The notes under the pieces are model-generated. The model saw only the letters and a list, made by a program, of their open reading frames with translations. It was not told where the DNA came from and made no database searches. Below, one piece after another: positions 40,865-58,853 of a stretch of DNA of 64,000 bases; the first letter of the stretch is position 1, and every line of letters begins with the position of its first letter. Where the stretch lies: positions 310,001-374,000 of the forward strand of contig NZ_JANTHZ010000001.1 in NCBI RefSeq assembly GCF_024752355.1, in the 5' to 3' direction. The position numbers and the translations under genes were made by a program. The stretch is from Ancylobacter mangrovi. GTDB taxonomy: Bacteria; Pseudomonadota; Alphaproteobacteria; Rhizobiales; Xanthobacteraceae.

Positions 40865-42495
40865 TCGTGGCCCCCATCCGTCGGCGGGCGCGGCGGCAGC
40901 GAGCCCAGCACGTCCTGCGCATAGATTTGCGGCCAGTAGAGCAGTTGCGCCGTCGCCTCCATGTAGCGCATGGCCGGACCGCCCATCACCGTCATCGCCG
41001 CGCACAGGAACAGCAGCACCGCGACCGGCATCGCCTCGATCGCCCGCACGCGGGGAATGGCGATCTCGTCCGGTCCCCACAGCGTGCGGATGCCGGTGCG
41101 GGTCATGGCGATCAGCGTGGCGAGGCCGGAGAGGACCAGCAGGATCACCAGCGCCCAGTGCGAGGGCGGGATGTCGCCGGCCTCGTTGATCAGCGCCGAG
41201 AGCATGGCGAACTTGGCGATGAAGCCGGAGAGCGGCGGCATGCCGGCGAGCAGCGCCGTGCAGGCGAGGAAGCCGCCGCCCAGCACGGCGATGGCGGCGG
41301 GAATGGCGACGCCGACCTCGTCCTCCTCGTCCTCGATGTCCTCCTCCGGATCGCCGAACACCTCCATCGTCACCGCCAGCACGTCGGCGCCGGCCTGCCG
41401 GCCGCGCTCGATCAGCTCCACCAGCAGGAAATAGGCGCCGATGGTGAAGGTCGAGCTGACGAGATAGAACAGCGCGCCCGAGATCACCGCGCTGTTGGTG
41501 GTGCCGATCGCCGCCAGAAGCGTGCCGGAGGAGACCAGCACGCTGTAGCCGCCGAGCCGCGGCATCGATTGCGAGGCGAGCACGCCGATGCCGCCGAAGG
41601 CGATGGTGGCCATGCCGCCATAATAGAGCCACTCGGCGCCGAAATCGGCCGAGGCACCGGCCCCGTCGCCGAAGCACAGCAGGAACAGGCGCAGGATCAC
41701 GTAGATCCCGACCTTGGTCATGATCGCGAACATCGCCGCGACCGGCGCGCAGGAGGCGGCATAGGTGGTCGGCAGCCAGAAGCTGAGCGGCCACATGCCG
41801 GCCTTCACCAGGAAGGCGACGCCCAGCACCGCCGCGCCGGCCTCGAACAGCACGCGCGAATCGTCCGGCAGGTCCGGCACCAACCGCGCCAGATCCGCCA
41901 TGTTGAGCGTGCCGGTGACGCCGTAGATCAGGCTGACGCCAATGAGGAAGAGCGAGGAGGCGACGAGGTTGATCGGGATGTAGTGCAGCCCGGCCTTCAC
42001 CCGCGCCGTGCCCGAGCCGTGCAGCACCAGCCCGTAGGACGCGGCCAGCAGGATCTCGAAGAACACGAACAGGTTGAACACGTCGCCGGTAAGGAAGGCG
42101 CCGTTCAGCCCCGTCAGCAAGAGCAGGAACAGCGTGTAGAAGCGCGGCCCCGCCCGATGCCAGCGCGCCATGGCGAAGAGCAGCGTCGCCGCGCCGAGCA
42201 CGGCGGTCACCAGCACCATCAGCGCCGACAGCCGGTCCGCCACCAGCACGATGCCGAAGGGCGGGCGCCAGTTGCCGAGCGGATAGACGATGAGCGAGGA
42301 CCAGCGGTCGCCCGAGGGCGTGTCGACATAGACCACCAGCGCCACCGCGATGACCAGCAGCGCACCCACCGTGCCGAGGCTGAGCGTCATCTTCATGGTC
42401 CGGCGGCGGTCGTCGAACATCAGCAGGAAGGCGCCGACCGCCAGCGGCAGCAGGACCGGGGCGATGACCAGATGGCGCATGACGTCGCCCATCAT
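40861..42495 (-). CDS. mrpD: Mrp Na+/H+ antiporter subunit D (NuoM/N-like)
   Basis: 544 residues with about 14 helices, homologous to complex I subunits NuoM/NuoN. The conserved TM5 glutamate lies in DVFNLFVFFEILLAASYGLVL and the TM7 lysine in GVAFLVKAGMWPLSFWLPTTYA. An acidic insert (DPEEDIEDEEDEVG) occurs in a loop near residue 380, longer than in typical MrpD. Start at 42495, where ATGA overlaps the mrpC stop. Confidence 0.93.
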   Translation of the reverse strand: MMGDVMRHLVIAPVLLPLAVGAFLLMFDDRRRTMKMTLSLGTVGALLVIAVALVVYVDTPSGDRWSSLIVYPLGNWRPPFGIVLVADRLSALMVLVTAVLGAATLLFAMARWHRAGPRFYTLFLLLLTGLNGAFLTGDVFNLFVFFEILLAASYGLVLHGSGTARVKAGLHYIPINLVASSLFLIGVSLIYGVTGTLNMADLARLVPDLPDDSRVLFEAGAAVLGVAFLVKAGMWPLSFWLPTTYAASCAPVAAMFAIMTKVGIYVILRLFLLCFGDGAGASADFGAEWLYYGGMATIAFGGIGVLASQSMPRLGGYSVLVSSGTLLAAIGTTNSAVISGALFYLVSSTFTIGAYFLLVELIERGRQAGADVLAVTMEVFGDPEEDIEDEEDEVGVAIPAAIAVLGGGFLACTALLAGMPPLSGFIAKFAMLSALINEAGDIPPSHWALVILLVLSGLATLIAMTRTGIRTLWGPDEIAIPRVRAIEAMPVAVLLFLCAAMTVMGGPAMRYMEATAQLLYWPQIYAQDVLGSLPPRPPTDGGHE

Positions 42496-42833
42496 TCCGC
42501 CTCCCGCCCGTCGACATGGTCGGTGCCGGTGCGCCCGCGCGCGGCGAGCAGCACCACCAGGAACAGCGCGGTCATGGCGAAGCCGATGACGATCGCCGTC
42601 AGCACCAGCGCCTGCGGCACCGGGTCGGCCAGCACCGCCGGGTCGGCGGCCGTGCCAGGGGTCAGCACCGGGGGCGCATCCATCTTGATGCGGCCCATGC
42701 TGAAGATGAACATGTTCACCGCATAGGACAGCAGCGCCAGGCCGATGATGACCTGATAGGTGCGCGGGCGCAGCAGCAGCCACACGCCGGAGGCGGCGAA
42801 CACGCCGATGCCGATGGCGAGCATCATCTCCAT
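42492..42833 (-). CDS. mrpC: Mrp Na+/H+ antiporter subunit C (NuoK-like)
   Basis: 113 residues, three helices. The NuoK/MnhC pattern is VWLLLRPRTYQVIIGLALLSYAVNMFIFSMG followed by DPVPQALVLTAIVIGFAMTALFLVVL. The start at 42833 overlaps the mrpA/B stop by 10 bp; in-frame ATGs at 42827 and 42824 are alternatives. Confidence 0.93.
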   Translation of the reverse strand: MEMMLAIGIGVFAASGVWLLLRPRTYQVIIGLALLSYAVNMFIFSMGRIKMDAPPVLTPGTAADPAVLADPVPQALVLTAIVIGFAMTALFLVVLLAARGRTGTDHVDGREAE

Positions 42834-45736
42834 CGCTCGGCCTCCGAGCTCTGCGACGAGCGCGACGAGCGCAGCGACTGGTGGGCCAGGGCGATGAGGA
42901 TCAGCACCGTCGCGCCCACCACCAGCGCGAACACGCCGAGGTCGAACAGCAGCGCGCTCGCCACCGGAATCTTCCCCACCACCGGCAGCACCGCATACTG
43001 GAAATACGAGGTGAGGAAGGGATAGCCGAAGAACCAGGAGCCGAGCCCGGTCGCCACCGCGGTCAGCAGGCCGAGCCCCATCCAGCGCAGCGGCAGCACG
43101 CGCAGATGGTCCTCCACCCAGCGGGTGCCGTTGGCCATGTATTGCACCACGAAGGCGATGGAGAGCGTGATGCCGGCCGCGAAGCCACCGCCCGGCAGGT
43201 CGTGGCCGCGCATGAACAGGTACACCGCCGCCACGCCGATCACCGGGAACAGCCAGTTCATGATGAGGCGCGGGATCATCAGATAGTCGGTCAGTGTGTC
43301 GCCCGGCGCGCGCGTGGGTTCCGCATCGTCGAAGGCGTCCTGGATGCGCTGCTGCTCGGGGCTTTCGATGCTCTCCGGCGCCGGCCGGAAGCGGCGCAGC
43401 AGCCCGAACACGGTGAGCGCGGCAAGGCACAGGACCACGATCTCGCCCATCGTGTCGAAGCCGCGGAAGTCGACCAGGATCACGTTGACGATGTTGGTGC
43501 CGCCACCCTCGCTATAGGCGTTCTCGACGAAGAAGCGCGATACGGCGGAGGCGTGCGGGCGCGTCATCAGGCTGTAGGAGAGGAACGCCATGACCGCACC
43601 GAGCCCGCAGGCGATGGTGAAATCGATGTAGCGGCGCACCAGCACGCTGAGCGGCGGGCGGGTGCCGTAAACGTCCTCGATCCGTTTGGGCAGCCAGCGC
43701 AGTCCCAGCAGCAGCAGCACGGTGGTGACGATCTCGACCAGGAGCTGGGTCAGCGCGAGGTCCGGCGCGGAGAGCCAGATGAAGGTGACGCAGGTCACCA
43801 GCCCCGCCCCGCCGACGAGCACCAGCGCCGCGAAGCGGTGGTACTTGGCCTGATAGGCAGCGCCGATGGCGCAGGCGATGCCGATCGCCCACACCACCAC
43901 GAAGGCAGGCTCCATCGGCGCGCCGGGGAGCATGCCGGTCCCGACCACATGCCCGACCAGCGGCACCACCGCCGCGATGACGGCGAGCGCCAGCACGAGC
44001 CGCATCTGCGGCTGCAGGCGCCGCGTGCCCAGCACAGCCTCGGCCGCGCGCGCCCATTGCCAGGAGATGGTGACGAGCACCTTGTCGAAGATGCGCTGGC
44101 CCTTCAGCTCGCGGATCAGCGGCGGGCCCTCGATGCCGCTCATCAGATAGCGGCGCAGCGCGTAGTACAGCACGATGCCGCCGATGAGGGCGATGAAGCT
44201 CATCAGCAGCGGCAGCGTGAAGCCATGCCACAGCGCGAGGCTGTAGGCCGGCAGGCCGGTGCCGATGACAGAGCGGATCGCGGTCGCCAGCAGCGGGCCC
44301 ACCGTGAAGCCGGGCACGATGCCGATGGTCAGGCACAGCAGCACCAGCAGCTCGATCGGGAACCGCATCCAGCGCTCGGGCTCGTGCGGGCGCCGCGGCA
44401 GGTCGATCGGCGGCGGGCCGAAGAACACGCCGAGGATGAAGCGCATCGAATAGGTGACGCTGAACACGCCGGCCAGCGTCGCCCAGTAGGGAAGGCTGTC
44501 GTCGAGCAGCGAGCCGGTGTGGTTGGCCACCGCCTCGGCGAAGAACATCTCCTTGGAGATGAAGCCGTTGAGCAGCGGCACGCCGGCCATGGAGGCGGCG
44601 GCCACCATGGCCAGCGTCGCGGTGAAGGGCATGTAGCGGGCGAGGCCGCTGAGGCGGCGCATGTCGCGCGTGCCGGTCTCGTGGTCGATGATGCCGGCGG
44701 CCATGAACAGCGACGCCTTGAAGATGGCGTGGTTCAGCGTGTGGAAGATCGCGGCGACCGCCGCCAGCGGGCTGCCGAGGCCGAGCAGCAGCGTGATCAG
44801 CCCCAGATGGCTGATGGTGGAATAGGCGAGCAGCCCCTTCAGGTCCTGCTGGAAGATCGCCGCGAAGGCGCCGAGCAGCAGCGTCGTCAGCCCCACCGGC
44901 ACGACGACGTAGAACCACTCGTCGGTGCCCGCCATCACCGGCCAGAGCCGGATCATCAGGAAGATGCCGGCCTTCACCATGGTGGCGGAGTGCAGATAGG
45001 ACGACACCGGCGTCGGCGCCGACATAGCGTGCGGCAGCCAGAAATGGAACGGGAACTGCGCGCTCTTGGTGAAGGCGCCGAGCAGGATCAACGCCAGCGC
45101 CGGCATGTAGAGGTCGCTGTTGCGGATCAGGTTGCCGGAATTGAGCACCTCGTCGACGTCGTAGCTGCCGACGATGCGCCCGATCAGCATCACGCCGACG
45201 AACAGGCACAGCCCGCCGCTCGCGGTGATGATGAGCGCCATGCGCGCGCCCTCGCGCGCCGGGGCGGAATGGTGCCAGTAGCCGATCAGCAGGAAGGAGA
45301 AGAGGCTGGTGAGCTCCCAGAAGAAGACGAGCTGCACCAGGTTGCCCGAGATCACCACGCCGAGCATGGAGCCCTGGAAGGCGAGCAGGAACGAGAAGAA
45401 GCGCGGCACCGGGTCTTCCGGCGACATGTAGTAGCGCGCATAGAGCGCGACCAGCGCGCCGATGCCGGAGATCAGCGTCGCGAACAGCCAGGACAGGCCG
45501 TCGAGCCGCAGCGTGAAGTCCAGCCCCAGCGTCGGCAGCCAGTCCAGCGCGAAGCGCACCGGCTCCTCGTCGGCGACGTCGAGATACAGCCAGACCAGCA
45601 TGAGGCTGCCGACGACCCCGATGCTTCCGGCCAGCGTCGCGGCGGTGTTGCGCGCATTGGTCGGAAGAAACCCCGCCACGAGGCTGCCCGCGAATGGCAG
45701 GAGCAGCATGACGAGGAGAAGTGGGCCGGGCTGCAT
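42824..45736 (-). CDS. mrpA: Mrp Na+/H+ antiporter fused subunits A and B
   Basis: 970 residues. The N-terminal ~750 residues are the NuoL-like MrpA antiporter part, with conserved motifs QLVFFWELTSLFSFLLIGYW (TM5 glutamate), GAFTKSAQFPFHFWLPHAM (TM7 lysine), SSYLHSATMVKAG and HTLNHAIFKASLFM. The last ~170 residues form an MnhB domain (IPRLIMNWLFPVIGVAAVYLFMRGHDLPGGGFAAGI). Natural A-B fusions are typical of the Rhizobiales PhaA type, and there is no separate mrpB, so the operon is complete as A/B-C-D-E-F-G. The complex exchanges Na+ (or K+) for protons for pH and salt tolerance. First gene, divergent from a small XRE regulator. Confidence 0.95.
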   Translation of the reverse strand: MQPGPLLLVMLLLPFAGSLVAGFLPTNARNTAATLAGSIGVVGSLMLVWLYLDVADEEPVRFALDWLPTLGLDFTLRLDGLSWLFATLISGIGALVALYARYYMSPEDPVPRFFSFLLAFQGSMLGVVISGNLVQLVFFWELTSLFSFLLIGYWHHSAPAREGARMALIITASGGLCLFVGVMLIGRIVGSYDVDEVLNSGNLIRNSDLYMPALALILLGAFTKSAQFPFHFWLPHAMSAPTPVSSYLHSATMVKAGIFLMIRLWPVMAGTDEWFYVVVPVGLTTLLLGAFAAIFQQDLKGLLAYSTISHLGLITLLLGLGSPLAAVAAIFHTLNHAIFKASLFMAAGIIDHETGTRDMRRLSGLARYMPFTATLAMVAAASMAGVPLLNGFISKEMFFAEAVANHTGSLLDDSLPYWATLAGVFSVTYSMRFILGVFFGPPPIDLPRRPHEPERWMRFPIELLVLLCLTIGIVPGFTVGPLLATAIRSVIGTGLPAYSLALWHGFTLPLLMSFIALIGGIVLYYALRRYLMSGIEGPPLIRELKGQRIFDKVLVTISWQWARAAEAVLGTRRLQPQMRLVLALAVIAAVVPLVGHVVGTGMLPGAPMEPAFVVVWAIGIACAIGAAYQAKYHRFAALVLVGGAGLVTCVTFIWLSAPDLALTQLLVEIVTTVLLLLGLRWLPKRIEDVYGTRPPLSVLVRRYIDFTIACGLGAVMAFLSYSLMTRPHASAVSRFFVENAYSEGGGTNIVNVILVDFRGFDTMGEIVVLCLAALTVFGLLRRFRPAPESIESPEQQRIQDAFDDAEPTRAPGDTLTDYLMIPRLIMNWLFPVIGVAAVYLFMRGHDLPGGGFAAGITLSIAFVVQYMANGTRWVEDHLRVLPLRWMGLGLLTAVATGLGSWFFGYPFLTSYFQYAVLPVVGKIPVASALLFDLGVFALVVGATVLILIALAHQSLRSSRSSQSSEAERWR

Positions 45737-47265: not shown

Positions 47266-48198
47266 CTATTTCGGCGTCAGGGCGGTTACCGCGAGTGCCG
47301 TTGCGGCAGCCCGGTTCTCGACACCGATCTTGGAGTAGATCTGCTCCAAGTGTTTGTTAACCGTACGCGGCGAAAGCCCGAGGATCTCGCCGATGTCGCG
47401 GTTCGCCTTGCCCCGGGCCAGCCACATCAGCACCTCGGCCTCGCGGATGGTGAGGTTGAGCCGTGCGCGTAGGACCTGCTCGGGCGCCAGCCCGTCGTCC
47501 TCGACGATGCGCAGCAGCAGTTCCTCCGGCCCGATCTGCCCGACATAGGAGATGCGCAGGCGGCGCGGCGAGCCGTCCACCGGCAGGTCGAGCGCGCTCG
47601 GCTCCACGCCGCTCGCCTCGCTGCGGCGCTCGGCCAGCCAGCGGCGCACGGGTTCGGGCAGCATCAGGCTGTCGCCAGGCACCGATGCCGTGATCGCCGT
47701 CAGCAGCGTGGTCGCCTGCGGCGTGCTCCACAGCACCCGCCCGTCGCGGGTGGCGGAGAGCAGGAACCGGCCGGCGGCGTCCAGCGCCGCGCGGGCGCTG
47801 TGGGTCTGGCGGGCATTGGCGAGGTGCACGCGGATGCGCGCGATCAGCTCGTCCGGCGAGATCGGCTTGGTCACGTAGTCGACCCCGCCCGCCTCCAGCC
47901 CCTTCACGATCTGCTCGGTCTCCGACAGGCCGGTCATGAAGATGACCGGCACATGGGCGACCGACTTGTTGCGCTTGAGCCGGCGGCAGGTCTCGAATCC
48001 GTCCATGCCCGGCATCACCGCGTCGAGCAGGATCACGTCGGGCGTGATGCGCTCGACCAGCGCCAGCGCGTTGGCGCCCTCCACGGCGACCAGCACGGTC
48101 GCCCCGGCCGCCTCCAGCGCGTCGGTGAGCAGGCTCAGGGTTTCGGGGGAATCATCCACCACCAGGATGATGTCGCGGCGCTCCACGCTATGCATCAT
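47266..48198 (-). CDS. LuxR-type response regulator
   Basis: 310 residues. The receiver domain has the acidic pair D15-D16, phosphoacceptor D59 (VILLDAVMPGMDGFE) and the switch residues MTGLSE and TKPIS. A linker of about 115 residues follows. It has a PAS-like look (RDGRVLWSTPQATTLL, LRISYVGQIGPEELLLRIVEDD). The C-terminal LuxR helix-turn-helix is LTIREAEVLMWLARGKANRDIGEILGLSPRTVNKHLEQIYSKIGV. The gene overlaps the end of the upstream hybrid kinase gene by 11 bp, so the two form one signalling pair. The likely target is the divergent urt/fmd operon. Confidence 0.92.
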   Translation of the reverse strand: MMHSVERRDIILVVDDSPETLSLLTDALEAAGATVLVAVEGANALALVERITPDVILLDAVMPGMDGFETCRRLKRNKSVAHVPVIFMTGLSETEQIVKGLEAGGVDYVTKPISPDELIARIRVHLANARQTHSARAALDAAGRFLLSATRDGRVLWSTPQATTLLTAITASVPGDSLMLPEPVRRWLAERRSEASGVEPSALDLPVDGSPRRLRISYVGQIGPEELLLRIVEDDGLAPEQVLRARLNLTIREAEVLMWLARGKANRDIGEILGLSPRTVNKHLEQIYSKIGVENRAAATALAVTALTPK

Positions 48199-51100
48199 TG
48201 CTGCGCAACGCCTCCAGAACAGCCATGTATTGCTTCAGGTCGAAGGTTTCCATCAGATCGCGCATGTGCGAGACGAAGGCCTCGTTCTCGGGCGAGGCGC
48301 TCTCGATCTCCTTGAGCTTGGCCTGGATGCCGCGCACATAGCCGATCTCGCCGAGCTTCATCAGGTCCTCGAGATGCAGCCCGCCCGGCGCCTGCAGCAC
48401 GCCGGCGGCGCGCAGCTCGACCGCCCGCGCCGCCGCCTCGCCCTCGCCGATCCATTCGAGGTCGAGCAGCTTTTCCATCTTCTCCAGCAGGCCGCGCAGC
48501 TGCACCGGCTTGACCATGTGGTCGTCGTGCTGGCTGGCCTCGAGCCCGTTGCCGTGGATCTCGCCGACATTGGCGGAGATGATGATGATGCGCAGCCGGG
48601 TGAAGCCCTCGTCGCGCACCTGCCGCACCACCTCCCAGCCATTCAGCCCGGGCATGGCGAGGTCGAGCAGCAGCAGGTCGGGGTCCCACTGGCGCACCAT
48701 GTCGAGCGCGGCGACGCCGTCCGCCGCCGACAGCACGGTGAAGCCGAGCGGCACCAGCAATTCGTGCATCAGGTCGCGATGGGCCGAATCGTCGTCCGCC
48801 ACCAGCACGGTGCGACGCGGCCCGGTATAGCCCGCGACGCGCCGGTGCTGGATCGGACCCGGGCGGGTCGGGTTGGCGACCTCCGACAGCATCATCTTGA
48901 CGCGGAAGGTGCTGCCCTTGCCCGGCTTCGAGGTGAGGGAAATCTCACCGCCCATGATCTCGGTGAGCAGCTTTGTGATGGTCAGCCCGAGGCCGATGCC
49001 GCTGGTCGAGTAGGTGCCCGCCCGCTCGCCGCGCTCGAACGGCTCGAAGATGCGCGTGTGGTCGGCGGCGGGAATGCCGATGCCGGTATCCTCGACCTCG
49101 AACTCGGCGACCTGGTTGCGATAGGCGACGCGCAGCGCCACCCGCCCCTGGGCGGTGAACTTGATGGCATTGGAGAGCAGGTTGATGAGGATCTGCCGCA
49201 GCCGCTTCTCGTCGGTGTAGACGACAGCGGGAAGCCGCTCGGGCCGCACATAGACGAAGTCGATGCCCTTGGCGGTCGCCTGCAGGCGGAACATGTCGAC
49301 GAGCTGGTCGAGGAATTCGGCGATCCGCACCTCGTCGCGGGTGAGGTGGAGCCGGCCGGCCTCGATCTTCGAGATGTCGAGCAGGCCGTCGATCAGGCCG
49401 GACAGGTGCTCGGCCGAGCGCCGCACCACGCGGATCGCGTCGCGCCGGTGCGGGGGGATCGAGGTGTCGCGCTCGAGGAGCTGCGCGTAGCCGAGAATGG
49501 CGTTGAGCGGGGTGCGCAGCTCGTGGCTGATGCCGACGACGTAGCGGCTCTTGGCGAGGTTGGCGGCCTCGGCCACTTCCTTCGCCTTCTGCAGCTTGGC
49601 GTCGGTGCGCTTGTGCGCCTCGATCTCGCGCATCAGCAGCGCGGTCTGGCGGTTGCTCTCCTCCTGCGCGACGCGCCGGCTCTCCTGCGCCAGCACGAAC
49701 AGCCAGGCCGCGACGCCGGCGATGATGAGCAGGATGAAGTAGAGCGTGAAGAGCACGCTGCCGATCGCCTCGCGCCGCATCGGCGGCCCGAGCGTGGCCT
49801 GGAAATAGATGATGCCGAGGATGGCGCCGATCACCAGCGCCAGCAGCGACAGCACGCCGATATAGTGGCCGATGCGCGAATTGATCTGCGCCACCATCCA
49901 GCTTGGCAAGGTCGCGCGCAGCGCGCCGAGGATCTGGTCCGGGAAGCGCGCATCCTCCTTGCAGCGGTCGTGGCAGCGCGCGTCGAGCGAGCAGCACAGC
50001 GAGCAGATCGGGCCGGCATAGACCGGGCAGTGCGCCATGTCCTCCGGCTCGAACTTGTGCTCGCAGATGCAGCACTTGAGCGTGTGGCGATGTTCCCAGT
50101 TCTTGGTGGTGCGGCGGGCGATGTAGTAGCGCCCCCTGGTCGCGAAGGCGATGCCGGCGGCGGCGGCGAAGGACACCACCAGCGCCACGAAGGGCGCGAA
50201 TACCTGCAGCGTCGGGCCGAAGAACCCGGCGAAGGCGGCGATCGCCACCAGCGTGCCGATCAGCACCGCGCCGACGCCCACCGGGTTGATGTCGTAGAGA
50301 TGCGCCCGCTTGAACTCGATGCCCGGCGGGCTCCAGCCCATCGGCTTGTTCACCACCAGATCGGCCACCAGCGCTGCGACCCACGAGACCGCGACGATGG
50401 CGTAGAGGCCGAGGATCTGCTCCAGCACCTTGTAGATGCCGAGCGCCATCAGCATCAGCGCGATGGTGACGTTGAACACCAGCCAGACCACCCGCCCGGG
50501 ATGGCTGTGGGTGAGCCGCGAGAAGAAGTTCGACCAGGCGATCGAGCCCGCATAGGAGTTCGTCACGTTGATCTTGAGCTGGGCGAGGATGACGAAGAAG
50601 CCGGTGAAGGCCAGAGCCATTTCCGGGCTCAGCATGATCTTGAAGGCCGACAGGTACATCTGCGTCGGCTCGGCGGCGTGGACGAAGGGCACGCCCTGGG
50701 TCAGCGCGAAATAGGCCAGGAACGAGCCCGCCAGCATCTTGATCATGCCGGGGATGATCCAGCCCGGCCCGGCCGAGAGCAGCGAGAGCCACCACACCGT
50801 GTTGCGCACCGCCGCGCTGCCGCCCGGCACGCGGCGCGGCAGGAAGCGCAGGAAGTCCACCTGCTCGCCGATCTGCGCCACGAGGGCGAACACCACGGTC
50901 GAGGCGGCGCCGAACAGCAGCGGGTCGAACGAGCCGTCCAGCGCGCCGAGCCGGCCGGTATAGGAGGTCCAGCCGGCGATGGCGTGGCCGTGGACGAAGA
51001 AGATGAAGACGAAGGGTATGAGGTTCAGCAGCAGCCAGAAGGGCTGGGTCCAGAGCTGGAACCGGCTGATGAAGGTGATGCCGTGCGTCACCAGCGGGAT

Positions 51101-51580
51101 CACCACCAGCGCGCTGATGAAATAGCCGACCATCAGCGGCACGCCGAAGCACAGCTCCAGCGCCAGCGCCATGATCGCCGCCTCGATGGCGAAGAACAGG
51201 TAGGTGAAGGAGGCGTAGATCAGCGAGGTGACGGTCGAGCCGATATAGCCGAAGCCGGCGCCGCGCGTGAGCAGGTCGATGTCGACCCCGAACTTGGCGG
51301 CGTAGTAGCTGATCGGAAGCCCGGTGGCGAAGATGATGATGCTGACGACCAGGATCGCCGCGACCGCGTTGGGGAAGCCGTAGGCCAGCGTGATCGAGCC
51401 GCCGATCGCCTCCAGCGCGAGGAACGAGACTGCCCCGAGCGCGGTGTTGGCGACGCGCAGCGCCGACCAGCGGCGGGCGCCCTTCGCCGTGAAACGCAGC
51501 GCGTAGTCCTCCAGCGTCTCGTTGACGACCCATTGATTGTACTGGCGTCGAACACGAACGATCTTCTGTTCCGCCGCCAT
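48188..51580 (-). CDS. NCS1-transporter-fused hybrid histidine kinase
   Basis: 1130 residues from the ATG at 51580 (GAGG nine bases upstream; an ATG at 51613 is in frame). Residues 15-480 are a twelve-helix NCS1 nucleobase:cation symporter-like domain (NTALGAVSFLALEAIGGSITLAYGF; FFVILAQLKINVTNSYAGSIAWS). Residues 503-540 hold nine cysteines in a zinc-finger-like cluster. Two more helices (571-592, 607-629) lead to the kinase: H-box SHELRTPLNAI with H686, N-box NLLSNAIKFTA, G-boxes DTGIGIP and GIGLGLTI. A receiver with D973 follows, then a ~100-residue C-terminal region. It probably senses a nitrogen compound through the transporter fold. It is divergent from urtA and overlaps the response regulator gene. 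Confidence 0.93.
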   Translation of the reverse strand: MAAEQKIVRVRRQYNQWVVNETLEDYALRFTAKGARRWSALRVANTALGAVSFLALEAIGGSITLAYGFPNAVAAILVVSIIIFATGLPISYYAAKFGVDIDLLTRGAGFGYIGSTVTSLIYASFTYLFFAIEAAIMALALELCFGVPLMVGYFISALVVIPLVTHGITFISRFQLWTQPFWLLLNLIPFVFIFFVHGHAIAGWTSYTGRLGALDGSFDPLLFGAASTVVFALVAQIGEQVDFLRFLPRRVPGGSAAVRNTVWWLSLLSAGPGWIIPGMIKMLAGSFLAYFALTQGVPFVHAAEPTQMYLSAFKIMLSPEMALAFTGFFVILAQLKINVTNSYAGSIAWSNFFSRLTHSHPGRVVWLVFNVTIALMLMALGIYKVLEQILGLYAIVAVSWVAALVADLVVNKPMGWSPPGIEFKRAHLYDINPVGVGAVLIGTLVAIAAFAGFFGPTLQVFAPFVALVVSFAAAAGIAFATRGRYYIARRTTKNWEHRHTLKCCICEHKFEPEDMAHCPVYAGPICSLCCSLDARCHDRCKEDARFPDQILGALRATLPSWMVAQINSRIGHYIGVLSLLALVIGAILGIIYFQATLGPPMRREAIGSVLFTLYFILLIIAGVAAWLFVLAQESRRVAQEESNRQTALLMREIEAHKRTDAKLQKAKEVAEAANLAKSRYVVGISHELRTPLNAILGYAQLLERDTSIPPHRRDAIRVVRRSAEHLSGLIDGLLDISKIEAGRLHLTRDEVRIAEFLDQLVDMFRLQATAKGIDFVYVRPERLPAVVYTDEKRLRQILINLLSNAIKFTAQGRVALRVAYRNQVAEFEVEDTGIGIPAADHTRIFEPFERGERAGTYSTSGIGLGLTITKLLTEIMGGEISLTSKPGKGSTFRVKMMLSEVANPTRPGPIQHRRVAGYTGPRRTVLVADDDSAHRDLMHELLVPLGFTVLSAADGVAALDMVRQWDPDLLLLDLAMPGLNGWEVVRQVRDEGFTRLRIIIISANVGEIHGNGLEASQHDDHMVKPVQLRGLLEKMEKLLDLEWIGEGEAAARAVELRAAGVLQAPGGLHLEDLMKLGEIGYVRGIQAKLKEIESASPENEAFVSHMRDLMETFDLKQYMAVLEALRSNDA

Positions 51581-52054
51581 AGGGTTTCGCCTCGCCGTTT
51601 CGACGCTCGACATCCGCTTGCGCTTATCCTCCCCGGCACTCTTTTCGTTGCTGCACTGCCCGAAACCCGCCGGTCACGCCGACCGGCACCGCTTCCCTAG
51701 CATATTTCGTTCCACCCAAGTCGACAGAGACAAAAAGATTTCGCACGCCATCGGCGTCAAGACTTTTTGCCGCACCTCGGTGTTTAGGAGAGAAACTGAA
51801 TGCAATAAACACACGAACAACTGGCGTCGATTTCACTATTGGCAAGAATACCCGTCACACGCGCGCGCGAAAACTGGAAGCGCACGGCGGGCACCTGTAT
51901 CCCCAACCTATAGCCCAGTGTGTCCCGGCGGCACCGGATCACCTATACGTCAATCGACGTATTGCTGCGGCGCGGCATCGGCCCCCACGATCCTCACAAT
52001 GCAAGCACATCGAGAAGCTTGTTGAGGCCACGTCAAACCCGTGGAGGGGATCGT
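51581..52054. promoter_or_regulatory. Divergent control region, sensor kinase versus urt operon
   Basis: A 474-bp intergenic region with an AT-richer centre (about 51690-51860). It contains the inverted repeat ATACGTC-AATC-GACGTAT (51945-51962, perfect seven-base arms), about 93 bp before the urtA start, which could bind the LuxR-type response regulator as a dimer. A strong ribosome site GGAGGGGA precedes urtA. I found no sigma-54 -24/-12 element with correct spacing. Confidence 0.55.
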
Positions 52055-53338
52055 ATGTCTTCGAACAATGATAATTCCAGCAGGTTTTCGGCCACCCGCC
52101 GAAAGCTTCTGATGGGCATGGCGGCGCTTCCCGCCGTACCTCTTCTTGCCCAGACCGGCCTCTTGACTACGCCGGCCCACGCCCAGGCGCCGGCGACGGC
52201 CGACGTCAACACGACGGGACTTGCGGTCACCGACGACGAAGTGACGGTCGGCATCCTGCATTCCGTCACCGGTACCATGGCGATCTCGGAGACCGGCTCG
52301 GTGCAGGCCGAGAAGCTCGCCATCGACCAGATCAACGCCGCGGGCGGCGTGCTCGGCCGCAAGATCAAGTACATCCAGGAGGACGGCGCGTCCGACTGGC
52401 CGACCTTCGCCGAGAAGGCCAAGAAGCTGCTGGTGCAGGACAAGGTCGCGGCGATCTTCGGCTGCTGGACCTCGGCCTCGCGCAAGGCGGTGCTGCCGGT
52501 CGTCGAGCAGTATAACGGCATGCTCTACTACCCGACCTTCTATGAAGGCCTCGAGCAGTCCAAGAACGTCATCTACACCGGCCAGGAGGCCACCCAACAG
52601 ATCCTCGCCGGCCTCGACTGGGTGCAGGAGACCAAGGGCGGCAAGACTTTCTACCTGATCGGCTCCGACTACATCTGGCCGCGCACCTCGATGAAGATCG
52701 CGCGCAAGCACATCGAGGGCCACCTGAAGGACTCGAAGGTCGTCGGCGAGGAGTACTTCCCGCTCGGCCACACCCAGTTCAACTCGGTGATCAACAAGAT
52801 CAAGCTGAAGAAGCCGGACGTGATCTACGCCGCGGTCGTCGGCGGCTCGAACGTCGCCTTCTACAAGCAGCTCAAGGCCGCGGGCATCGACCTGTCGAAG
52901 CAGACCCTGCTCACCATCTCGGTGACCGAGGACGAGATCGACGGCATCGGCGGCGAGAACATCGCTGGCGCCTACAGCTGCATGAAGTACTTCCAGTCGC
53001 TCGACAACCCGAACAACAAGGAATTCGTCGCCGCGTTCAAGAAGATGTGGGGCGAGAAGACCGTGATCGGCGACGTGACCCAGGCCGCCTATCTCGGTCC
53101 CTGGCTGTGGAAGATGACGGTCGAGAAGGCCGGCAGCTTCGACATCGACAAGATCGCCGAGGCCTCGCCCGGCATCGAGTTCACCAAGGCGCCGGAAGGC
53201 TATGTGAAGATCCACAAGAACCATCACCTGTGGTCGAAGACCCGGGTCGGCCAGGCGCAGGTCGACGGCCAGTTCAAGGTGGTCTTCGAGACCCCGGACC
53301 TCATCGAGCCCAACCCGTTCCCCGAGGGCTACCAGTGA
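52055..53338 (+). CDS. urtA: Urea/short-chain amide ABC transporter binding protein
   Basis: 427 residues. The N-terminus has a twin-arginine-like signal (SATRRKLLMGMAALPAV) with cleavage near AHAQ at residue 44. The mature protein is a UrtA/AmiC-type binding protein: VGILHSVTGTMAISETGSVQAEKLAIDQINAAGGVLGR, FGCWTSASRKAVLPVVEQYNGMLYYPTFYEG and LIGSDYIWPRTSMKIA. These segments are typical of urea receptors. Because formamidase genes follow the transporter genes, the ligand could be formamide or another short amide as in the FmdDEF system. First gene of the operon. Confidence 0.93.
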   Translation: MSSNNDNSSRFSATRRKLLMGMAALPAVPLLAQTGLLTTPAHAQAPATADVNTTGLAVTDDEVTVGILHSVTGTMAISETGSVQAEKLAIDQINAAGGVLGRKIKYIQEDGASDWPTFAEKAKKLLVQDKVAAIFGCWTSASRKAVLPVVEQYNGMLYYPTFYEGLEQSKNVIYTGQEATQQILAGLDWVQETKGGKTFYLIGSDYIWPRTSMKIARKHIEGHLKDSKVVGEEYFPLGHTQFNSVINKIKLKKPDVIYAAVVGGSNVAFYKQLKAAGIDLSKQTLLTISVTEDEIDGIGGENIAGAYSCMKYFQSLDNPNNKEFVAAFKKMWGEKTVIGDVTQAAYLGPWLWKMTVEKAGSFDIDKIAEASPGIEFTKAPEGYVKIHKNHHLWSKTRVGQAQVDGQFKVVFETPDLIEPNPFPEGYQ

Positions 53339-53390: not shown

Positions 53391-53436
53391 CATTGAACGG
53401 AGACCGCGCCGCAGGGCGCACGCCGGGGGATTCGTG

Positions 53437-54363
53437 ATGTTCTCAGACTATTCGCTGGCCGAACTCGGCTCGATTTTCGTGATGCAGGGCTTCGCCGGCC
53501 TCATCCTGTTTTCGGTTTTCGTGCTCATGGCGCTCGGCCTGGCCATCATCTTCGGCCAGATGGGCGTCATCAACATGGCGCATGGCGAGTTCATGATCCT
53601 CGGCGCCTATGTGACCTATTTCACATCGCAGTTCTTCCTCAATTTCATCCCGTCTCTGTTCAACATCTACTTCTTCGTCGCCATGATATTGGCGTTCTTC
53701 GCCTCCGGCGCCCTCGGCATGTTCATCGAATGGGCGATGATCCGGCGGCTCTACAAACGCCCGCTCGACACGCTGCTCGCCACCTGGGGCCTCAGCCTGA
53801 TCCTTCAGCAGGTCTACCGCTCGGTGTTCGGCCCGCGCGAGGTCGGCGTCGAGCTGCCGGAATGGATGATGGGCTCGCTGCCCGTCACCGACATGGTCGA
53901 GGTGCAGATCAACGGCCTGTTCGTGATGGGCCTCACCATCGCCATCACCGTCGCGGTCGCCGTGCTCATGTACAAGTCGAACTGGGGCAAGCAGGTGCGC
54001 GCAGTGGTGCAGAACCGCGTCATGGCGGGCGCCGTCGGCATCAACACCGAGAAGGTGGACCGCTACACCTTCGGCCTCGGCTGCGGCATCGCCGGCGTTG
54101 CCGGCTCGGCCTTCACCATGATCGGCTCGACCGGGCCGACCTCCGGCCAGCTCTACATCGTCGACACCTTCCTGGTCGTCGTCTTCGGCGGCGCGCAGAG
54201 CCTGCTCGGCACCATCGCCTCCGCCTTCACCATCTCCCAGGCCCAGTCGACGATGGAGTTCTTCCTGTCCGGCTCGACGGCCAAGGTCCTCACGCTGCTC
54301 AGCGTGGTCATCATCCTGATGCTGCGGCCCCAGGGCCTGTTCGTCATCAAGGTCCGTCGCTGA
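53437..54363 (+). CDS. urtB: Urea/amide ABC transporter permease UrtB
   Basis: 308 residues from the ATG at 53437; a GTG immediately upstream (53434) is also in frame. LivH-type permease with about eight helices: LAIIFGQMGVINMAHGEFMILGAYVTY and the C-terminal VDTFLVVVFGGAQSLLGTIASAFTI, both typical of UrtB. It lacks the extra N-terminal domain seen in long UrtB proteins. It forms the channel with UrtC. Confidence 0.92.
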   Translation: MFSDYSLAELGSIFVMQGFAGLILFSVFVLMALGLAIIFGQMGVINMAHGEFMILGAYVTYFTSQFFLNFIPSLFNIYFFVAMILAFFASGALGMFIEWAMIRRLYKRPLDTLLATWGLSLILQQVYRSVFGPREVGVELPEWMMGSLPVTDMVEVQINGLFVMGLTIAITVAVAVLMYKSNWGKQVRAVVQNRVMAGAVGINTEKVDRYTFGLGCGIAGVAGSAFTMIGSTGPTSGQLYIVDTFLVVVFGGAQSLLGTIASAFTISQAQSTMEFFLSGSTAKVLTLLSVVIILMLRPQGLFVIKVRR

Positions 54364-54373: not shown

Positions 54374-55534
54374 ATGACAAAGACCGGCCGCACCTTCTTC
54401 CTGCGCCCGCAGGACATGATCGGGATCGCGATCCTCGCCATCCTCCTCCTCGTGGTCCTGCCGCTGACGCTGGACAATTTCCGCCTCCAGTTCGTCGGCA
54501 AGTACCTCACCTACGCCTTCGTCGCGCTCGGCCTGGTGCTGTGCTGGGGCTATGCGGGCATTCTCTCGCTCGGCCAGGGCGTGTTCTTCGGCCTCGGCGG
54601 CTACTGCATGGCCATGTTCCTCAAGCTGGAAGCCTCCAGCGTGGAGAACACCAAGATCCAGACCACGCCGGGCATTCCCGACTTCATGGACTGGAACCAG
54701 ATCACGCAGCTTCCCTGGTTCTGGGAGCCGTTCCACCATCTCGGCTTCACCATCATCGCGGTGCTCGTGGTGCCGGCGATCTTCGCCTTCGTCGTCGGCT
54801 TCGCCATGTTCAAGCGGCGCGTGGGCGGCGTGTACTTCGCCATCATCACCCAGGCGCTGGCGGCGATCCTCACCATCCTGATCGTCGGCCAGCAGGGCTA
54901 TACGGGCGGCATCAACGGCATCACCGACCTGCGCACGCTGAACGGCTGGGACATCCGCACCGACAGCGCCAAGACGATCCTCTACTTCGTCTGCGTCGGC
55001 CTGCTGCTGGCCTCCATCCTGCTCGCCTATTTCGTGAAGTCGTCCAAGCTCGGGCGCATCCTCGTCGCCATGCGCGACAAGGAGGACCGCGTCCGCTTCT
55101 CCGGCTACGACGTCTCGAACTTCAAGGTGTTCGTGTTCTGCCTGGCGGCCTCGCTGTCGGCCATCGGCGGGGCGATGTTCACCCTGCAGGTCGGCTTCAT
55201 GTCGCCGTCCTTCGTCGGCATCGTGCCCTCGATCGAGATGGTCATCTACACCGCGGTCGGCGGGCGCCTGTCGATCCTCGGCGCCATCTACGGCACGCTG
55301 CTGGTGAACTGGGCCAAGACCTCGTTCTCGGAGAGCTTCCCCGAGCTCTGGCTGTTCGGCCTCGGCGGCCTGTTCATCGCCGTGGTGCTCACCTTCCCGA
55401 ACGGCATCGCCGGTCTTTACCAGACCTATGTCGCCCCCCGTCTCGGGCCCCTGTTCGGCGGCGCGGCCAAGCGCAGCGACGCGACCCCGCCCGCGCCGCC
55501 GAGCTCCGGCCACGCCCCGGCCGCCGCCGAGTAA
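54374..55534 (+). CDS. urtC: Urea/amide ABC transporter permease UrtC
   Basis: 386 residues, LivM-type. Conserved UrtC segments: GLVLCWGYAGILSLGQGVFFGLGGYCMAMFL, QQGYTGGINGITDL, and VAMRDKEDRVRFSGYDVSNFKVFVFCLAASLSAIGGAMF, the loop that contacts the ATPases. The C-terminal 25 residues are Ala/Pro-rich and probably disordered. It follows urtB by 10 bp. Confidence 0.93.
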   Translation: MTKTGRTFFLRPQDMIGIAILAILLLVVLPLTLDNFRLQFVGKYLTYAFVALGLVLCWGYAGILSLGQGVFFGLGGYCMAMFLKLEASSVENTKIQTTPGIPDFMDWNQITQLPWFWEPFHHLGFTIIAVLVVPAIFAFVVGFAMFKRRVGGVYFAIITQALAAILTILIVGQQGYTGGINGITDLRTLNGWDIRTDSAKTILYFVCVGLLLASILLAYFVKSSKLGRILVAMRDKEDRVRFSGYDVSNFKVFVFCLAASLSAIGGAMFTLQVGFMSPSFVGIVPSIEMVIYTAVGGRLSILGAIYGTLLVNWAKTSFSESFPELWLFGLGGLFIAVVLTFPNGIAGLYQTYVAPRLGPLFGGAAKRSDATPPAPPSSGHAPAAAE

Positions 55535-55546: not shown

Positions 55547-56314
55547 ATGAACACTCCTGTCATCACCGACACCATGAACAAGGACTTCGTCCTCGCGGTT
55601 GAAGGGCTCACCGTCTCGTTCGACGGGTTCAAGGCGGTCAACGACCTCTCCTTCTACGTCGACGAGAACGAGATCCGCGTCATCATCGGCCCCAACGGGG
55701 CCGGCAAGACGACGGTGCTCGACCTCATCTGCGGCCGCACCAAGGCGACCACCGGGTCCATCAAGTTCAAGGACCAGGAGCTGACCCGGATGAAGGAGCA
55801 CGAGATCGTGCGCGCCGGGGTCGGGCGCAAGTTCCAGAACCCGTCGATCTACGAGGACCTCACCGTCTTCGAGAACCTCGAGATCTCCTATCCCAAGGGC
55901 CGCTCCGTGGTGGGCGCCCTCACCTTCCGCCGCGACGCGCCGGTGAAGGAGCGGGTGCAGGAGATCGCCGAGATGATCTTCCTCGCCGACCAGCTCGACC
56001 AGCGCGCCGAGTATCTCTCCCACGGCCAGAAGCAGTGGCTCGAGATCGGCATGCTGCTGATCCAGGACCCCGAGCTGCTGATGCTGGACGAGCCGGTCGC
56101 CGGCATGAGCGTGTCGGAGCGCAAGAAGACCGCCGAGCTCCTGCACACGATCATCAAGAACCGTTCGGTGATCGTGATCGAGCACGACATGAAGTTCGTC
56201 GAGGACATCGCCCACAAGGTCACGGTCCTGCACCAGGGCAAGATCCTGTCGGAAGGCCCGATGGCCAAGGTCCAGGCGGACCCGAAGGTCATCGAAGTCT
56301 ATCTCGGCCATTGA
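55547..56314 (+). CDS. urtD: Urea/amide ABC transporter ATP-binding protein UrtD
   Basis: 255 residues, LivG-type ATPase. Walker A GPNGAGKTT, Q-loop GRKFQNPSIYEDLTVFENLE, signature LSHGQKQWLEIGMLL (the HGQKQWLE form is characteristic of UrtD), Walker B LLMLDEPVAGMS and the H-loop VIVIEHDM. It energises UrtBC together with UrtE. Confidence 0.94.
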   Translation: MNTPVITDTMNKDFVLAVEGLTVSFDGFKAVNDLSFYVDENEIRVIIGPNGAGKTTVLDLICGRTKATTGSIKFKDQELTRMKEHEIVRAGVGRKFQNPSIYEDLTVFENLEISYPKGRSVVGALTFRRDAPVKERVQEIAEMIFLADQLDQRAEYLSHGQKQWLEIGMLLIQDPELLMLDEPVAGMSVSERKKTAELLHTIIKNRSVIVIEHDMKFVEDIAHKVTVLHQGKILSEGPMAKVQADPKVIEVYLGH

Positions 56315-56324: not shown

Positions 56325-57014
56325 ATGCTGAACGTCGAGAAACTTCACGTCTCCTACGGCGAGAGCGAGGTTCTCCACGGGCTCGACTTCAAGGTCGCGC
56401 CCAACGAGATCATCGCCATCATGGGCCGCAACGGCATGGGCAAGACCACGCTCATGAAATCGCTCATGGGCATCGTGCCGACCAAGAGCGGCGCGGTCTC
56501 GGTCGGCGAGACCGACATCACCCGGCTGAAGAGCTACGAGCGCGTCGCCAAGGGCATCGCCTACGTGCCGCAGGGCCGCATGATCTTCTCCACCATGACG
56601 GTGCAGGAGAACATCGAGACCGGGCTGATCCCGCGCGGCGAAAGCAAGGTGCCGACGGACATCTACGAGCTGTTCCCGGTGCTGCTGGAGATGAAGGGCC
56701 GGCGCGGGGGCAACCTCTCCGGCGGCCAGCAGCAGCAGCTCGCCATCGCCCGCGCGCTCGCCACCGCGCCCAAGGTGCTGCTGCTCGACGAGCCGACCGA
56801 GGGCATCCAGCCCTCGATCATCCGCGAGATGGCCCGCACGCTGAAGCGCATCCGCGACGAGCGCGGCCTGTCCATCATCGTCTCCGAGCAGGTGCTCTCC
56901 TTCGCCCTCGACATCGCCGACCGGGTGCTCGTCATCGAGAACGGCGAGATCGTCCACGAGAACGAGCGCTCCGAGGTCGACGAGGCCGCGGTCGCCCGCT
57001 TCCTGTCCGTCTGA
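56325..57014 (+). CDS. urtE: Urea/amide ABC transporter ATP-binding protein UrtE
   Basis: 229 residues, LivF-type ATPase. Walker A GRNGMGKTT, then KSLMGIVPTKSGAV, YVPQGRMIFSTMTVQENIETGL, signature LSGGQQQQLAIARAL and Walker B LLLLDEPTEGIQPSII. QGRMIFSTMTV and EGIQPSII are typical of UrtE. Last transporter gene; formamidase follows 74 bp later. Confidence 0.94.
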   Translation: MLNVEKLHVSYGESEVLHGLDFKVAPNEIIAIMGRNGMGKTTLMKSLMGIVPTKSGAVSVGETDITRLKSYERVAKGIAYVPQGRMIFSTMTVQENIETGLIPRGESKVPTDIYELFPVLLEMKGRRGGNLSGGQQQQLAIARALATAPKVLLLDEPTEGIQPSIIREMARTLKRIRDERGLSIIVSEQVLSFALDIADRVLVIENGEIVHENERSEVDEAAVARFLSV

Positions 57015-57088: not shown

Positions 57089-58324
57089 ATGCCTGAAACT
57101 TTGATCTCGGTCGATCTGTCCAAGCCGGCCACGGAGAACGAATATCTGCACAATCGCTGGCACCCGGACATTCCGATCGCCACCTGGGTCGAGCCCGGTG
57201 CCGACTTCATCGTCGAGACCGTCGACTGGACCGGCGGCGCCATCGCCAACAATGACAGCGCCGACGACATCCGCGACGTCGACCTGTCGACCGTGCACTA
57301 TCTGTCCGGCCCGATCGGCATCAAAGGCGCGGCGCCGGGCGACCTGCTCGTCGTCGACATCCTCGACGCGGGCACGCTCAAGGGCCACGAATGGGGCTTC
57401 AACGGCTTCTTCTCGAAGAAGAACGGCGGCGGCTTCCTCACCGATCACTTCCCGCTCGCCCAGAAGTCGATCTGGCACTATGAGGGCATGTTCACCCGCT
57501 CGCGGCATGTGCCGGGCGTCGGCTTCGCCGGCCTCATCCATCCCGGCCTGATCGGCACCCTGCCCTCGCAGAGCCTGCTCGACACCTGGAACGCGCGCGA
57601 GCAGGCGCTGATCGACACCAACCCGACCCGCGTGCCCCCGCTCGCCAACCCGCCCGCGCCCAAGACCGCGCATCTGGGCAAGCTCGGCAAGGGCGACGCC
57701 TGGGACAAGGTGGCCTCGGAAGGCGCGCGCACCGTGCCGCCGCGCGAGCATGGCGGCAATTGCGACATCAAGGACCTGTCGCGCGGCTCGAAGATCTACT
57801 TCCCCGTCTATGTCGACGGCGCCGGCCTCTCCATGGGCGACATGCACTTCTCCCAGGGCGACGGCGAGATCACCTTCTGCGGCGCGATCGAGATGTTCGG
57901 CGCGTGGCTGCACATCAAGGTCGACCTGATCAAGAACGGCATGGCGATGTACGGGATCAAGAACCCGATCTTCAAGCCGTCGCCAATCACGCCGAACTAC
58001 AAGGACTACCTGATCTTCGAAGGCATCTCGGTCGACGAGAGCGGCACGCAGCACTATCTCGACGCCAACGTCGCCTACCGCCAGGCCTGCCTCAACGCGA
58101 TCGAGTACCTGACCAAGTTCGGCTACTCGCCCGCGCAGGCGCACTCGATCCTCGGCGTCGCGCCGGTGCAGGGGCATTTCTCGGGCGTCGTCGACATCCC
58201 GAACTCCTGCGCCACGCTGTGGCTGCCGACCGAGATCTTCGACTTCGACATCAAGCCTTCGGCTGCCGGCCCGACCAAGTTCATCGACGGTTCGGTCGAC
58301 ATGCCGATCTCGCCGGACCTGTGA
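57089..58324 (+). CDS. fmdA: Formamidase
   Basis: 411 residues, acetamidase/formamidase family, matching FmdA of Methylophilus in length and layout. It hydrolyses formamide to formate and ammonia. Recognisable segments: YLHNRWHPDIPIATWVEPG near the N-terminus, GPIGIKGAAPGDLLVVDILD, RTVPPREHGGNCDIKDLSRGSKIYFPVYV (metal and substrate region) and LSMGDMHFSQGDGEITFCGAIE. Its place after the importer indicates that imported amide is broken down at once in the cytoplasm for nitrogen. Confidence 0.94.
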   Translation: MPETLISVDLSKPATENEYLHNRWHPDIPIATWVEPGADFIVETVDWTGGAIANNDSADDIRDVDLSTVHYLSGPIGIKGAAPGDLLVVDILDAGTLKGHEWGFNGFFSKKNGGGFLTDHFPLAQKSIWHYEGMFTRSRHVPGVGFAGLIHPGLIGTLPSQSLLDTWNAREQALIDTNPTRVPPLANPPAPKTAHLGKLGKGDAWDKVASEGARTVPPREHGGNCDIKDLSRGSKIYFPVYVDGAGLSMGDMHFSQGDGEITFCGAIEMFGAWLHIKVDLIKNGMAMYGIKNPIFKPSPITPNYKDYLIFEGISVDESGTQHYLDANVAYRQACLNAIEYLTKFGYSPAQAHSILGVAPVQGHFSGVVDIPNSCATLWLPTEIFDFDIKPSAAGPTKFIDGSVDMPISPDL

Positions 58325-58487: not shown

Positions 58488-58853
58488 ATGCCCGTCTACG
58501 AATATCTTTGCGACGAATGCGGCGACTTCACCACGCTGCGCCCGATGAGCGAGTATCAGGCCCCGCAACCCTGCCCCGACTGCGGCGCCATGGCGCCGCG
58601 GGTCATGCTCACCGCGCCCCACTTCTCGTCCGTCTCGCGCGCGAGCCTCGTTGCCCACGCCACCAACGAGCAGGCCCGCCACGAACCGATGAGCGTCGAC
58701 GGCTACAAGGCGAAGCAGGAGCGCGCCCGTCACGGCTCCGGCTGCTCGTGCTGCTCCGGCATGAAGAGCCGCAGCAAGAAGTCGAAGACCGCGACCAGCC
58801 CGAACGGCGCCAAGAGTTTCCCCTCGGCCCGCCCGTGGATGATCAGCCACTGA
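58488..58853 (+). CDS. fmdB: FmdB-type zinc-ribbon protein
   Basis: 121 residues from the ATG at 58488. The N-terminal zinc ribbon is MPVYEYLCDECGDFTTL...PQPCPDCG, with two CxxC pairs as in FmdB. A second cysteine group, SGCSCCSG, lies near residue 86. The rest is basic and Ser/Lys-rich. FmdB is described as a putative regulatory protein of the formamidase system. It lies 163 bp after fmdA and is convergent with the gamma-glutamyltransferase gene. Confidence 0.9.
   Translation: MPVYEYLCDECGDFTTLRPMSEYQAPQPCPDCGAMAPRVMLTAPHFSSVSRASLVAHATNEQARHEPMSVDGYKAKQERARHGSGCSCCSGMKSRSKKSKTATSPNGAKSFPSARPWMISH

Follow-up and report, generated by a model that had tools for sequence, protein, structure and literature searches.

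Histidine kinases that carry a whole transporter domain of the LeuT fold are already known. CbrA and CrbS, the latter also a hybrid kinase, are SLC5/STAC kinases. In the literature covered here, transporter-kinase fusions belong to the SLC5 family, and the stimuli of such fusions are called 'enigmatic' in a passage of a review (PMC7918813). The LuxR-type CrbR, the partner of CrbS, needs an inverted repeat upstream of its target promoters according to a passage of PMC5715377, and another transporter fold, the S-component, is linked with receptors in a part of PMC11109136. We analysed a 64,000-nucleotide stretch of the Ancylobacter mangrovi genome (assembly GCF_024752355.1, contig NZ_JANTHZ010000001.1, positions 310,001 to 374,000 of the forward strand; hereafter the window) and found a hybrid histidine kinase that also carries such a domain. 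Unlike in CbrA and CrbS, this domain is NCS1-like and not SLC5-like, an eight-cysteine domain and a membrane hairpin stand in place of STAC, and the gene is accompanied by amide/urea genes, whereas CbrA and CrbS are concerned with acetate or histidine. We consider, with a probability of about 80%, that a two-component system dedicated to short amides and urea has this kinase as its receptor and controls their uptake and breakdown.

The importer and the enzymes of the window are the same as in the described urtABCDE-fmdA-amiE clusters. For clusters of the urt-fmd type, passages on Bradyrhizobium (PMC3098086) and Pseudomonas (PMC13209695) propose the transport of amides rather than urea; a term search returned no 'kinase' from the portions covered of the former paper and no 'histidine kinase' from those of the latter. 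No kinase appears in the passages on the urt-amiF cluster of a Klebsiella lineage (PMC13060141) or in the passages on formamidase regulation of a review (PMC10781810). In the open-access literature, searched by titles, abstract starts and passages with most subscription journals and database annotations outside its scope, we found neither an NCS1-kinase nor a kinase controlling urt-fmd genes, in agreement with the initial annotation, which had called an NCS1 sensor with a metal-binding-like linker much less familiar than the CbrA type. Transporter-kinase fusions are thus not new, and the transporter fold, the linker and the regulon of this one are new to the literature searched.

The kinase is encoded by one intact open reading frame (ORF) with the following parts.

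48188..51613, minus strand: hybrid histidine kinase of 1141 aa whose sensor domain has the NCS1 fold (51580 is an alternative start)
50123..51523, minus strand: NCS1-fold transporter-like domain, residues about 31-497 (AlphaFold2 model, Foldseek, homology to a PF02133 permease)
49961..50074, minus strand: eight-cysteine domain C514 to C551, probable two-zinc treble-clef-like knot (conservation, model)
49691..49876, minus strand: extra transmembrane hairpin, residues about 580-641, then a helix into the kinase (model)
49355..49552, minus strand: HisKA dimerisation/phosphoacceptor domain with H697 (Pfam)
48890..49216, minus strand: HATPase_c catalytic domain (Pfam)
48476..48808, minus strand: receiver domain with D984 (Pfam)

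The gene had been placed at 48188-51580. Frame and stop were retained, and the start may be either 51580, which is the internal Met12 of the 1141-aa frame, or the ATG eleven residues upstream at 51613; the choice is left undecided because the first eleven residues are common to close relatives only in the alignment. All residue numbers here follow the 1141-aa frame, so that the H686, D973 and C503-C540 of the initial annotation become H697, D984 and C514-C551. The kinase and receiver were confirmed as complete by strong Pfam matches to HisKA (688-753), HATPase_c (800-908) and Response_reg (936-1046), and the protein shows all features of a hybrid histidine kinase, namely HisKA with its histidine, HATPase_c and a receiver with its aspartate, H697 and D984 being the phospho-acceptors. 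The His box was found in 73 of 73 long relatives. The two further hydrophobic helices reported after the cysteine cluster are present at about 580-641, and the C-terminal tail has no family assignment, as was also described.

The neighbouring genes and the palindrome are as follows.

47266..48198, minus strand: LuxR-type response regulator, receiver and GerE helix-turn-helix (Pfam)
51945..51962, no strand: palindrome ATACGTCAATCGACGTAT, predicted operator of the LuxR-type regulator (dyad count, site placement)
52055..53338, plus strand: urtA, amide/urea-binding protein of the ABC importer (TIGR03407, above cut-off; start from ribosome-binding site)
53434..54363, plus strand: urtB permease (NCBIfam, above cut-off)
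54374..55534, plus strand: urtC permease (NCBIfam, above cut-off)
55547..56314, plus strand: urtD ATPase (NCBIfam, above cut-off)
56325..57014, plus strand: urtE ATPase (NCBIfam, above cut-off)
57089..58324, plus strand: fmdA formamidase (NF045496, 724 bits against a cut-off of 500)
58488..58853, plus strand: fmdB zinc-ribbon protein, 121 aa (PF09723; 48% identity to Chelatococcus FmdB)

The regulator has the domains of a NarL/LuxR-type protein and overlaps the kinase gene by 11 bp, and urtABCDE, fmdA and fmdB diverge from the kinase gene, both as previously described. An overlap of kinase stop and regulator start recurs in 44 of the 55 loci surveyed, with starts picked by script. For urtA, the ribosome-binding site makes 52055 the most likely start rather than 51920.

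A profile search of 398 Pseudomonadota genomes gave matches in 57 of them, and we retained 57 long kinase matches in 52 genomes after dropping second pieces of one frame (G019 and G389; G and L numbers are our genome and locus handles), short fragments and distant NCS1 matches (G193:C40, G236, G288, G194, G070, G038). The earlier proposal stood or fell with a conserved linkage to amide genes, and 55 of the 57 kinase genes have urt, FmdA, AmiF/AmiE or urease genes no farther away than about 10 kb. The two others, L125 and L130, lie where their contigs end; in L130 the beginning of a urtA is visible. FmdA was found in 37 of the 57 loci (35 of them also with Urt), Urt with AmiF/E in one (L085, where fmdA is cut by the locus edge), urease in 13 (in six of them the stretch also holds a second UrtA of about 40% identity), and only the second Urt in four. 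Among the seven urease loci without UrtA in the stretch, L098, L103 and L107 carry further urt genes, and their urtA follows shortly outside the stretch, as does fmdA in L107.

The association is also seen from the side of the enzyme. FmdA above the family cut-off occurs in 40 of the 398 genomes, of which 39 have the kinase; the kinase alone was found in 13, FmdA alone in one and neither in 345 (Fisher p 1.4e-41, shared ancestry ignored). At the gene level, 39 of 43 FmdA genes have a kinase gene no more than 15 kb away, two matches under the family cut-off being left out. Across the kinase loci the importer varies (Urt or AmiS/UreI) and an amide or urea enzyme is retained. In Paracoccus, fmdA and AmiS/UreI stand beside a shorter kinase with nothing beyond the ATPase region; the loci L072, L123 and L124 encode such a short form of 873-894 aa, have their regulators as separate genes and combine fmdA with an AmiS/UreI channel in place of urt. 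Methylovirgula has the kinase and fmdA-fmdB with no annotated urt, a free-standing relative immediately behind the regulator, and an amidase; an unannotated urtA-like piece of about 100 residues (L139:20646-20939) lies between this permease and the amidase and may be what is left of a former urt set. On Klebsiella plasmids the kinase goes with urtABCDE and a nitrilase-type formamidase. On two of them, L070 (NZ_OM489427.1) and L136 (NZ_CP029431.1), kinase, regulator and a palindrome with one or two mismatches stand beside urtABCDE; the PLSDB gene table lacks the regulator of L070.

The palindrome ATACGTCAATCGACGTAT is located about 100 bp before urtA in the window. When all dyads with 5-bp arms were counted, with no motif preset, ATACG-N8-CGTAT came out on top in 44 of 69 kinase-urtA intergenic regions, many of them from close relatives, and no dyad exceeded 4 in 20 shuffles. 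In the 57 loci we found 48 relaxed sites (at most one mismatch), and 46 of these, spread over 38 loci, precede a urtA, fmdA or kinase gene by at most 450 bp; twelve scrambled palindromes gave 72 sites, of which 3 were placed in this way. As 34 of the 48 come from the regions used to discover the motif, the other 14 give a fairer picture. Twelve of these precede a target gene, and of the two that do not, the one in L085 is just outside the edge-cut fmdA. In 16 further kinase loci the figure was 13 of 13 sites, and in six kinase-less loci 0 of 1.

The palindrome also goes with its target genes. It stands before fmdA where this gene is apart (L084, L091, L092, L093, L095, L096), before an amidase (L138, L139), between permease and kinase (L140), and, where the second urtA is some 2 to 6 kb away from the kinase, before that gene (L105, L109, L115, L116, L120). 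In a forward test, in which the flanks of three urease loci were added, the site of G142 was exact and lay 147 bp ahead of urtA, that of G158 had two mismatches and lay 142 bp ahead of urtA, and that of G360, with one mismatch, lay 1.3 kb ahead of fmdA, its urtA having none. Since relatives have the palindrome again in front of urtA, fmdA, amidase or permease genes, it is probably the operator of the LuxR-type regulator, as judged from site placement. The 4.9-Mb genome holds one exact copy, the next best site having two mismatches, and looser sites show no excess, so the predicted regulon in this genome is this locus alone.

The sensor domain was assigned by structure prediction and by homology, sequence search being insufficient. 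Residues 1-660 gave no NCBIfam match, PDB sequence searches gave nothing significant (and nothing useful with a Pantoea permease as query), and PF02133 was absent in all 13 near relatives scanned. An AlphaFold2 model of residues 1-660, built from 21 sequences, had a pTM of 0.70 and a mean pLDDT of 71.8, and 12 membrane helices were read for the sensor domain from its helix list. The first five PDB ranks in Foldseek were Mhp1 and CodB (E 2.7e-8 to 2.4e-7, TM by target 0.61-0.77), which share this fold and have no fused kinase. In addition, the domain is 29% identical to the Pantoea permease, itself a PF02133 match, and 41% identical to a free-standing Streptomyces member. One of six free-standing relatives scanned passes PF02133 (L141 from Klebsiella, 37.7 bits against a cut-off of 23.5; P0001, L142, L144, L139 and L143 do not), and P0001 reached E 1.5e-6 with TIGR00800, under the family cut-off. 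The full NCS1-like transporter part of the initial annotation is supported by these results, and by model and homology the sensor domain belongs to the NCS1 fold. Membership in SLC5 (SSF) or the CbrA group was rejected: no Pfam family matched residues 1-660, and SLC5 structures rank below Mhp1 and CodB. Between transporter part and kinase, where STAC would stand, there is likewise no Pfam match, though Pfam may hold no STAC model.

The cysteines follow the pattern C-x2-C-x11-C-x7-C-x2-C-C-x5-C-x3-C with identical spacing in 78 of 78 kinases with an extracted ORF (L116 and L119 are outside this count). Nine cysteines had been reported; nine are present, eight of them invariant, and the ninth (C515) varies. 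The idea of a metal-binding domain would have failed with unconserved cysteines, and it passes this check for eight of the nine. The domain had also been taken for a linker of the kinase, and this has to be given up, as the same domain ends the kinase-less relatives: in free-standing permeases of the clade (Klebsiella, Moraxella, Arthrobacter) it occurs at the same place, complete or decayed. Six of eight such relatives keep C514, C517, C537 and C540 together and the remaining two C514 alone, whereas C529, C541, C547 and C551 are all kept only in Methylovirgula, with Streptomyces retaining C529. Because one foursome is lost and the other kept, two separate four-cysteine sites fit. A model of this region (pTM 0.48, pLDDT about 80 in the core) showed a knuckle, a hairpin and a helix, and a fold search with it gave PHD and RING domains first, with a best E of 0.45, which is not significant. 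It is a good guess that this is a two-zinc domain of cross-brace or treble-clef-like type with putative sites 514/517/537/540 and 529/541/547/551.

The free-standing relatives are eight hand-picked loci from plasmid and phage collections, some of which look like chromosome pieces. Labels are doubtful for L140 (CAKLQH020000001.1) and L141 (NZ_CP129771.1), filed as phage or plasmid yet with chromosomal-looking genes (rpsU-dnaG-rpoD in L141). Six of the eight have urease, formamidase or amidase genes within 10 kb (urease in two, formamidase in two, amidase in one, formamidase and amidase in one): the Klebsiella gene comes after ureG, that of Acinetobacter ursingii before ureE, those of Moraxella and Tsukamurella beside fmdA, and that of Arthrobacter beside an aliphatic amidase. 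In the seventh case, a sequence of Acinetobacter filed under phages, the permease gene and a kinase gene point away from each other and flank the palindrome. A profile of the eight permeases returned kinases, distant NCS1 proteins and fragments from the 398 genomes. In a tree made by a quick method from 81 rows, with two failed ORFs and eight near-duplicate or partial rows left out, the eight free-standing members lie on one side of a branch (SH-aLRT 98) and the deep kinase forks are open. The tree does not decide whether the fused or the free form is the older one.

Whether the kinase still transports its ligand had been left as a question. In a true transceptor the sensor domain would still import the amide, and flux, not binding alone, would drive the kinase, as discussed for CbrA and histidine. 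The title of a paper on the transport and kinase activities of CbrA (PMC7096432) and a paper on CbrA in histidine uptake, cited in a reference list, lend this some weight, as do the free-standing relatives, presumably transporters, with which the kinases have 74 positions in common, including E144, Q247, E250, N349 and N352. Against it, the window encodes a separate importer next to the kinase, and the residues of the ion site have changed. In CodB, a passage of PMC9379551 names Thr278 and Thr279 as sodium ligands and W108 and F204 as the aromatics that sandwich the cytosine; in our alignment with E. coli CodB, K347/I348 fall on T278/T279, F140 on W108 and L244 on F204, so that the sodium-ligand threonines and one of the two aromatics are not kept. 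K347 was found in 78 of 78 kinases and I348 in 77 (Lys-Val once). The threonine pair is replaced in the free-standing forms too, K347 being present in eight of eight, so the whole clade is probably without the NCS1 sodium site. Kinases and free-standing forms differ at eight near-fixed positions. Position 355 in TM8 is Ala in 78 of 78 kinases versus Ser in all eight free-standing relatives and two of two other NCS1 permeases; position 67 is Leu, Met or Cys in kinases versus Asp in all eight; and E68, present in all 77 kinase rows having a residue there, is Phe or Gln in free-standing forms. Positions 67/68 and 355 fall in TM1 and TM8, the location of the NCS1 sodium site. These residues suggest that ion-coupled transport has probably been lost in the kinase sensor domain, and we regard a transceptor as unlikely, although worth keeping in view.

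The same pocket bears on the proposal that the domain senses one of the ligands common among NCS1 proteins (a purine, pyrimidine or hydantoin, or allantoin), with the amide genes acting downstream of that breakdown. The fold itself would suit it, and some free-standing relatives are annotated as cytosine or allantoin permeases. The aromatic pair of CodB is not kept, however: position 140 is Phe in 69 and Leu in 9 of 78 kinases, and position 244 is Leu in 77 and Phe in one. Because one aromatic of the base sandwich is lost, a ligand of less than nucleobase size fits, and the pocket is probably made for such a ligand. The eight annotated kinase neighbourhoods on plasmids showed no purine or allantoin gene, the linkage scoring having covered amide and urea genes only. 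The initial annotation had listed urea, formamide and purine or allantoin products as candidate ligands; the neighbours favour the first two, and with the pocket residues they disfavour the last, which we hold to be most improbable. It is also very improbable, by a similar weighing, that the cysteine knot senses zinc, nickel or the redox state and the transporter fold is its scaffold. The cysteines are invariant in kinases and decayed in kinase-less relatives, and urease requires nickel; against this, the same knot occurs in formamidase-linked members with no urease found nearby, and the transporter domain is strongly conserved too, as the positions common with the free-standing relatives show.

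The receptor for short amides and urea would then work as follows. The ligand, formamide in the lineage of the window and urea in sister lineages, would bind to the NCS1-fold membrane domain, which probably no longer performs ion-coupled transport. A change of helix packing may pass through the cytosolic, probably two-zinc, cysteine domain and the membrane hairpin to the kinase helix, and phosphate may go from H697 to D984, to the LuxR-type partner, or to both. The regulator would bind the palindrome at 51945-51962 and activate urtABCDE-fmdAB, activation rather than repression being assumed. For amide binding and urt-fmd activation, the first and last steps, the basis is comparative genomics, and for the steps in between it is the anatomy of the protein.

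Several results pull in the other direction and weigh against this reading. No Pfam family matches residues 1-660 even at E<=10, and narrow patterns for the N-box and the receiver match 52 and 57 of the 73 kinases. Reinekea L027, outside the 57-locus set, has no amide gene found within 10 kb (Reinekea L026 is a 3.7-kb contig), and the kinase-less Streptomyces relative L069 has no amide or urea gene among its annotated neighbours. As for the palindrome, the kinship of the intergenic regions is one such point, and at up to three mismatches the genome holds 29 sites, whereas the reversed control has 35; ATACGY-N6-RCGTAT, the relaxed form, and its control have one genomic site each, and a match with at most three mismatches is expected in the window by chance (0.88). 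The urease loci L118, L122, L126 and L127, with no urt by the kinase in the stretch, have no site at one mismatch or less, two of them having a two-mismatch site. No site was found in the short-form kinase loci with AmiS (L072, L123, L124), which have other regulators, or near a target in the kinase-less loci L069 and L141-L145, and no sigma-70-like promoter was found by the palindrome in the window.

The chance is about even that these proteins form an undescribed class of transporter-derived receptor, NCS1-fold, with transport given up, urea or formamide as ligand and a two-zinc cross-brace, which would be a common amide/urea sensor of Pseudomonadota, share its ancestor with free-standing amide/urea permeases and occur also on Klebsiella plasmids beside urt-amiF. 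The free-standing clade permeases differ from the window kinase in lacking a kinase, in having mostly lost the second-site cysteines, and in having Asp67 and Ser355 in all eight. Here a further transporter fold is joined to a kinase; the ligands to try are few and cheap, the predicted operator is short, and relatives without the kinase can be compared, and because of these three features the question how a transporter becomes a receptor is directly testable. The locus also offers a candidate regulator of formamide and urea use in many bacteria, and of the Klebsiella urt-amiF cluster that resembles the one in the passages of PMC13060141.

In our genome collection we found 30 kinase loci, 28 of them with the transporter domain, mostly in Ancylobacter and also in Chelatococcus, Halioglobus and Reinekea. 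Among plasmid records, 531 have a match, including free-standing members and distant permeases, and 342 of these are labelled Klebsiella. A 623-aa frame in L129 (G288:C6:506901-507278) aligns with the kinase only from residue about 532 and is apparently a kin without the transporter domain.

In the regulator of the window, residues about 124-247, some 125 between receiver and GerE, have no Pfam match. On the same strand and 3' of it, 40367-45736 of the window (minus strand) encodes Mrp/Mnh-type Na+/H+ antiporter domains (Proton_antipo_M, MbhD, MbhE, MnhB, MNHE).

The transporter domain of the kinase is present in one copy in its own genome, which contains two genes for urease alpha and, besides three more UrtA relatives of 36-41% identity, two that are weaker. 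Because of these further UrtA and urease genes, the cluster in the window looks like a specialised amide set and not the sole urea system. On another contig of this genome (G000, C20, about 29870-33801; L038 and L148) we found a different hybrid kinase, an ORF of 549 aa without the transporter domain. It adjoins another UrtA relative and an ORF read as a LuxR-type regulator, with a urease alpha gene about 11 kb on, and may be another urea sensor of this genome, unrelated to the first.

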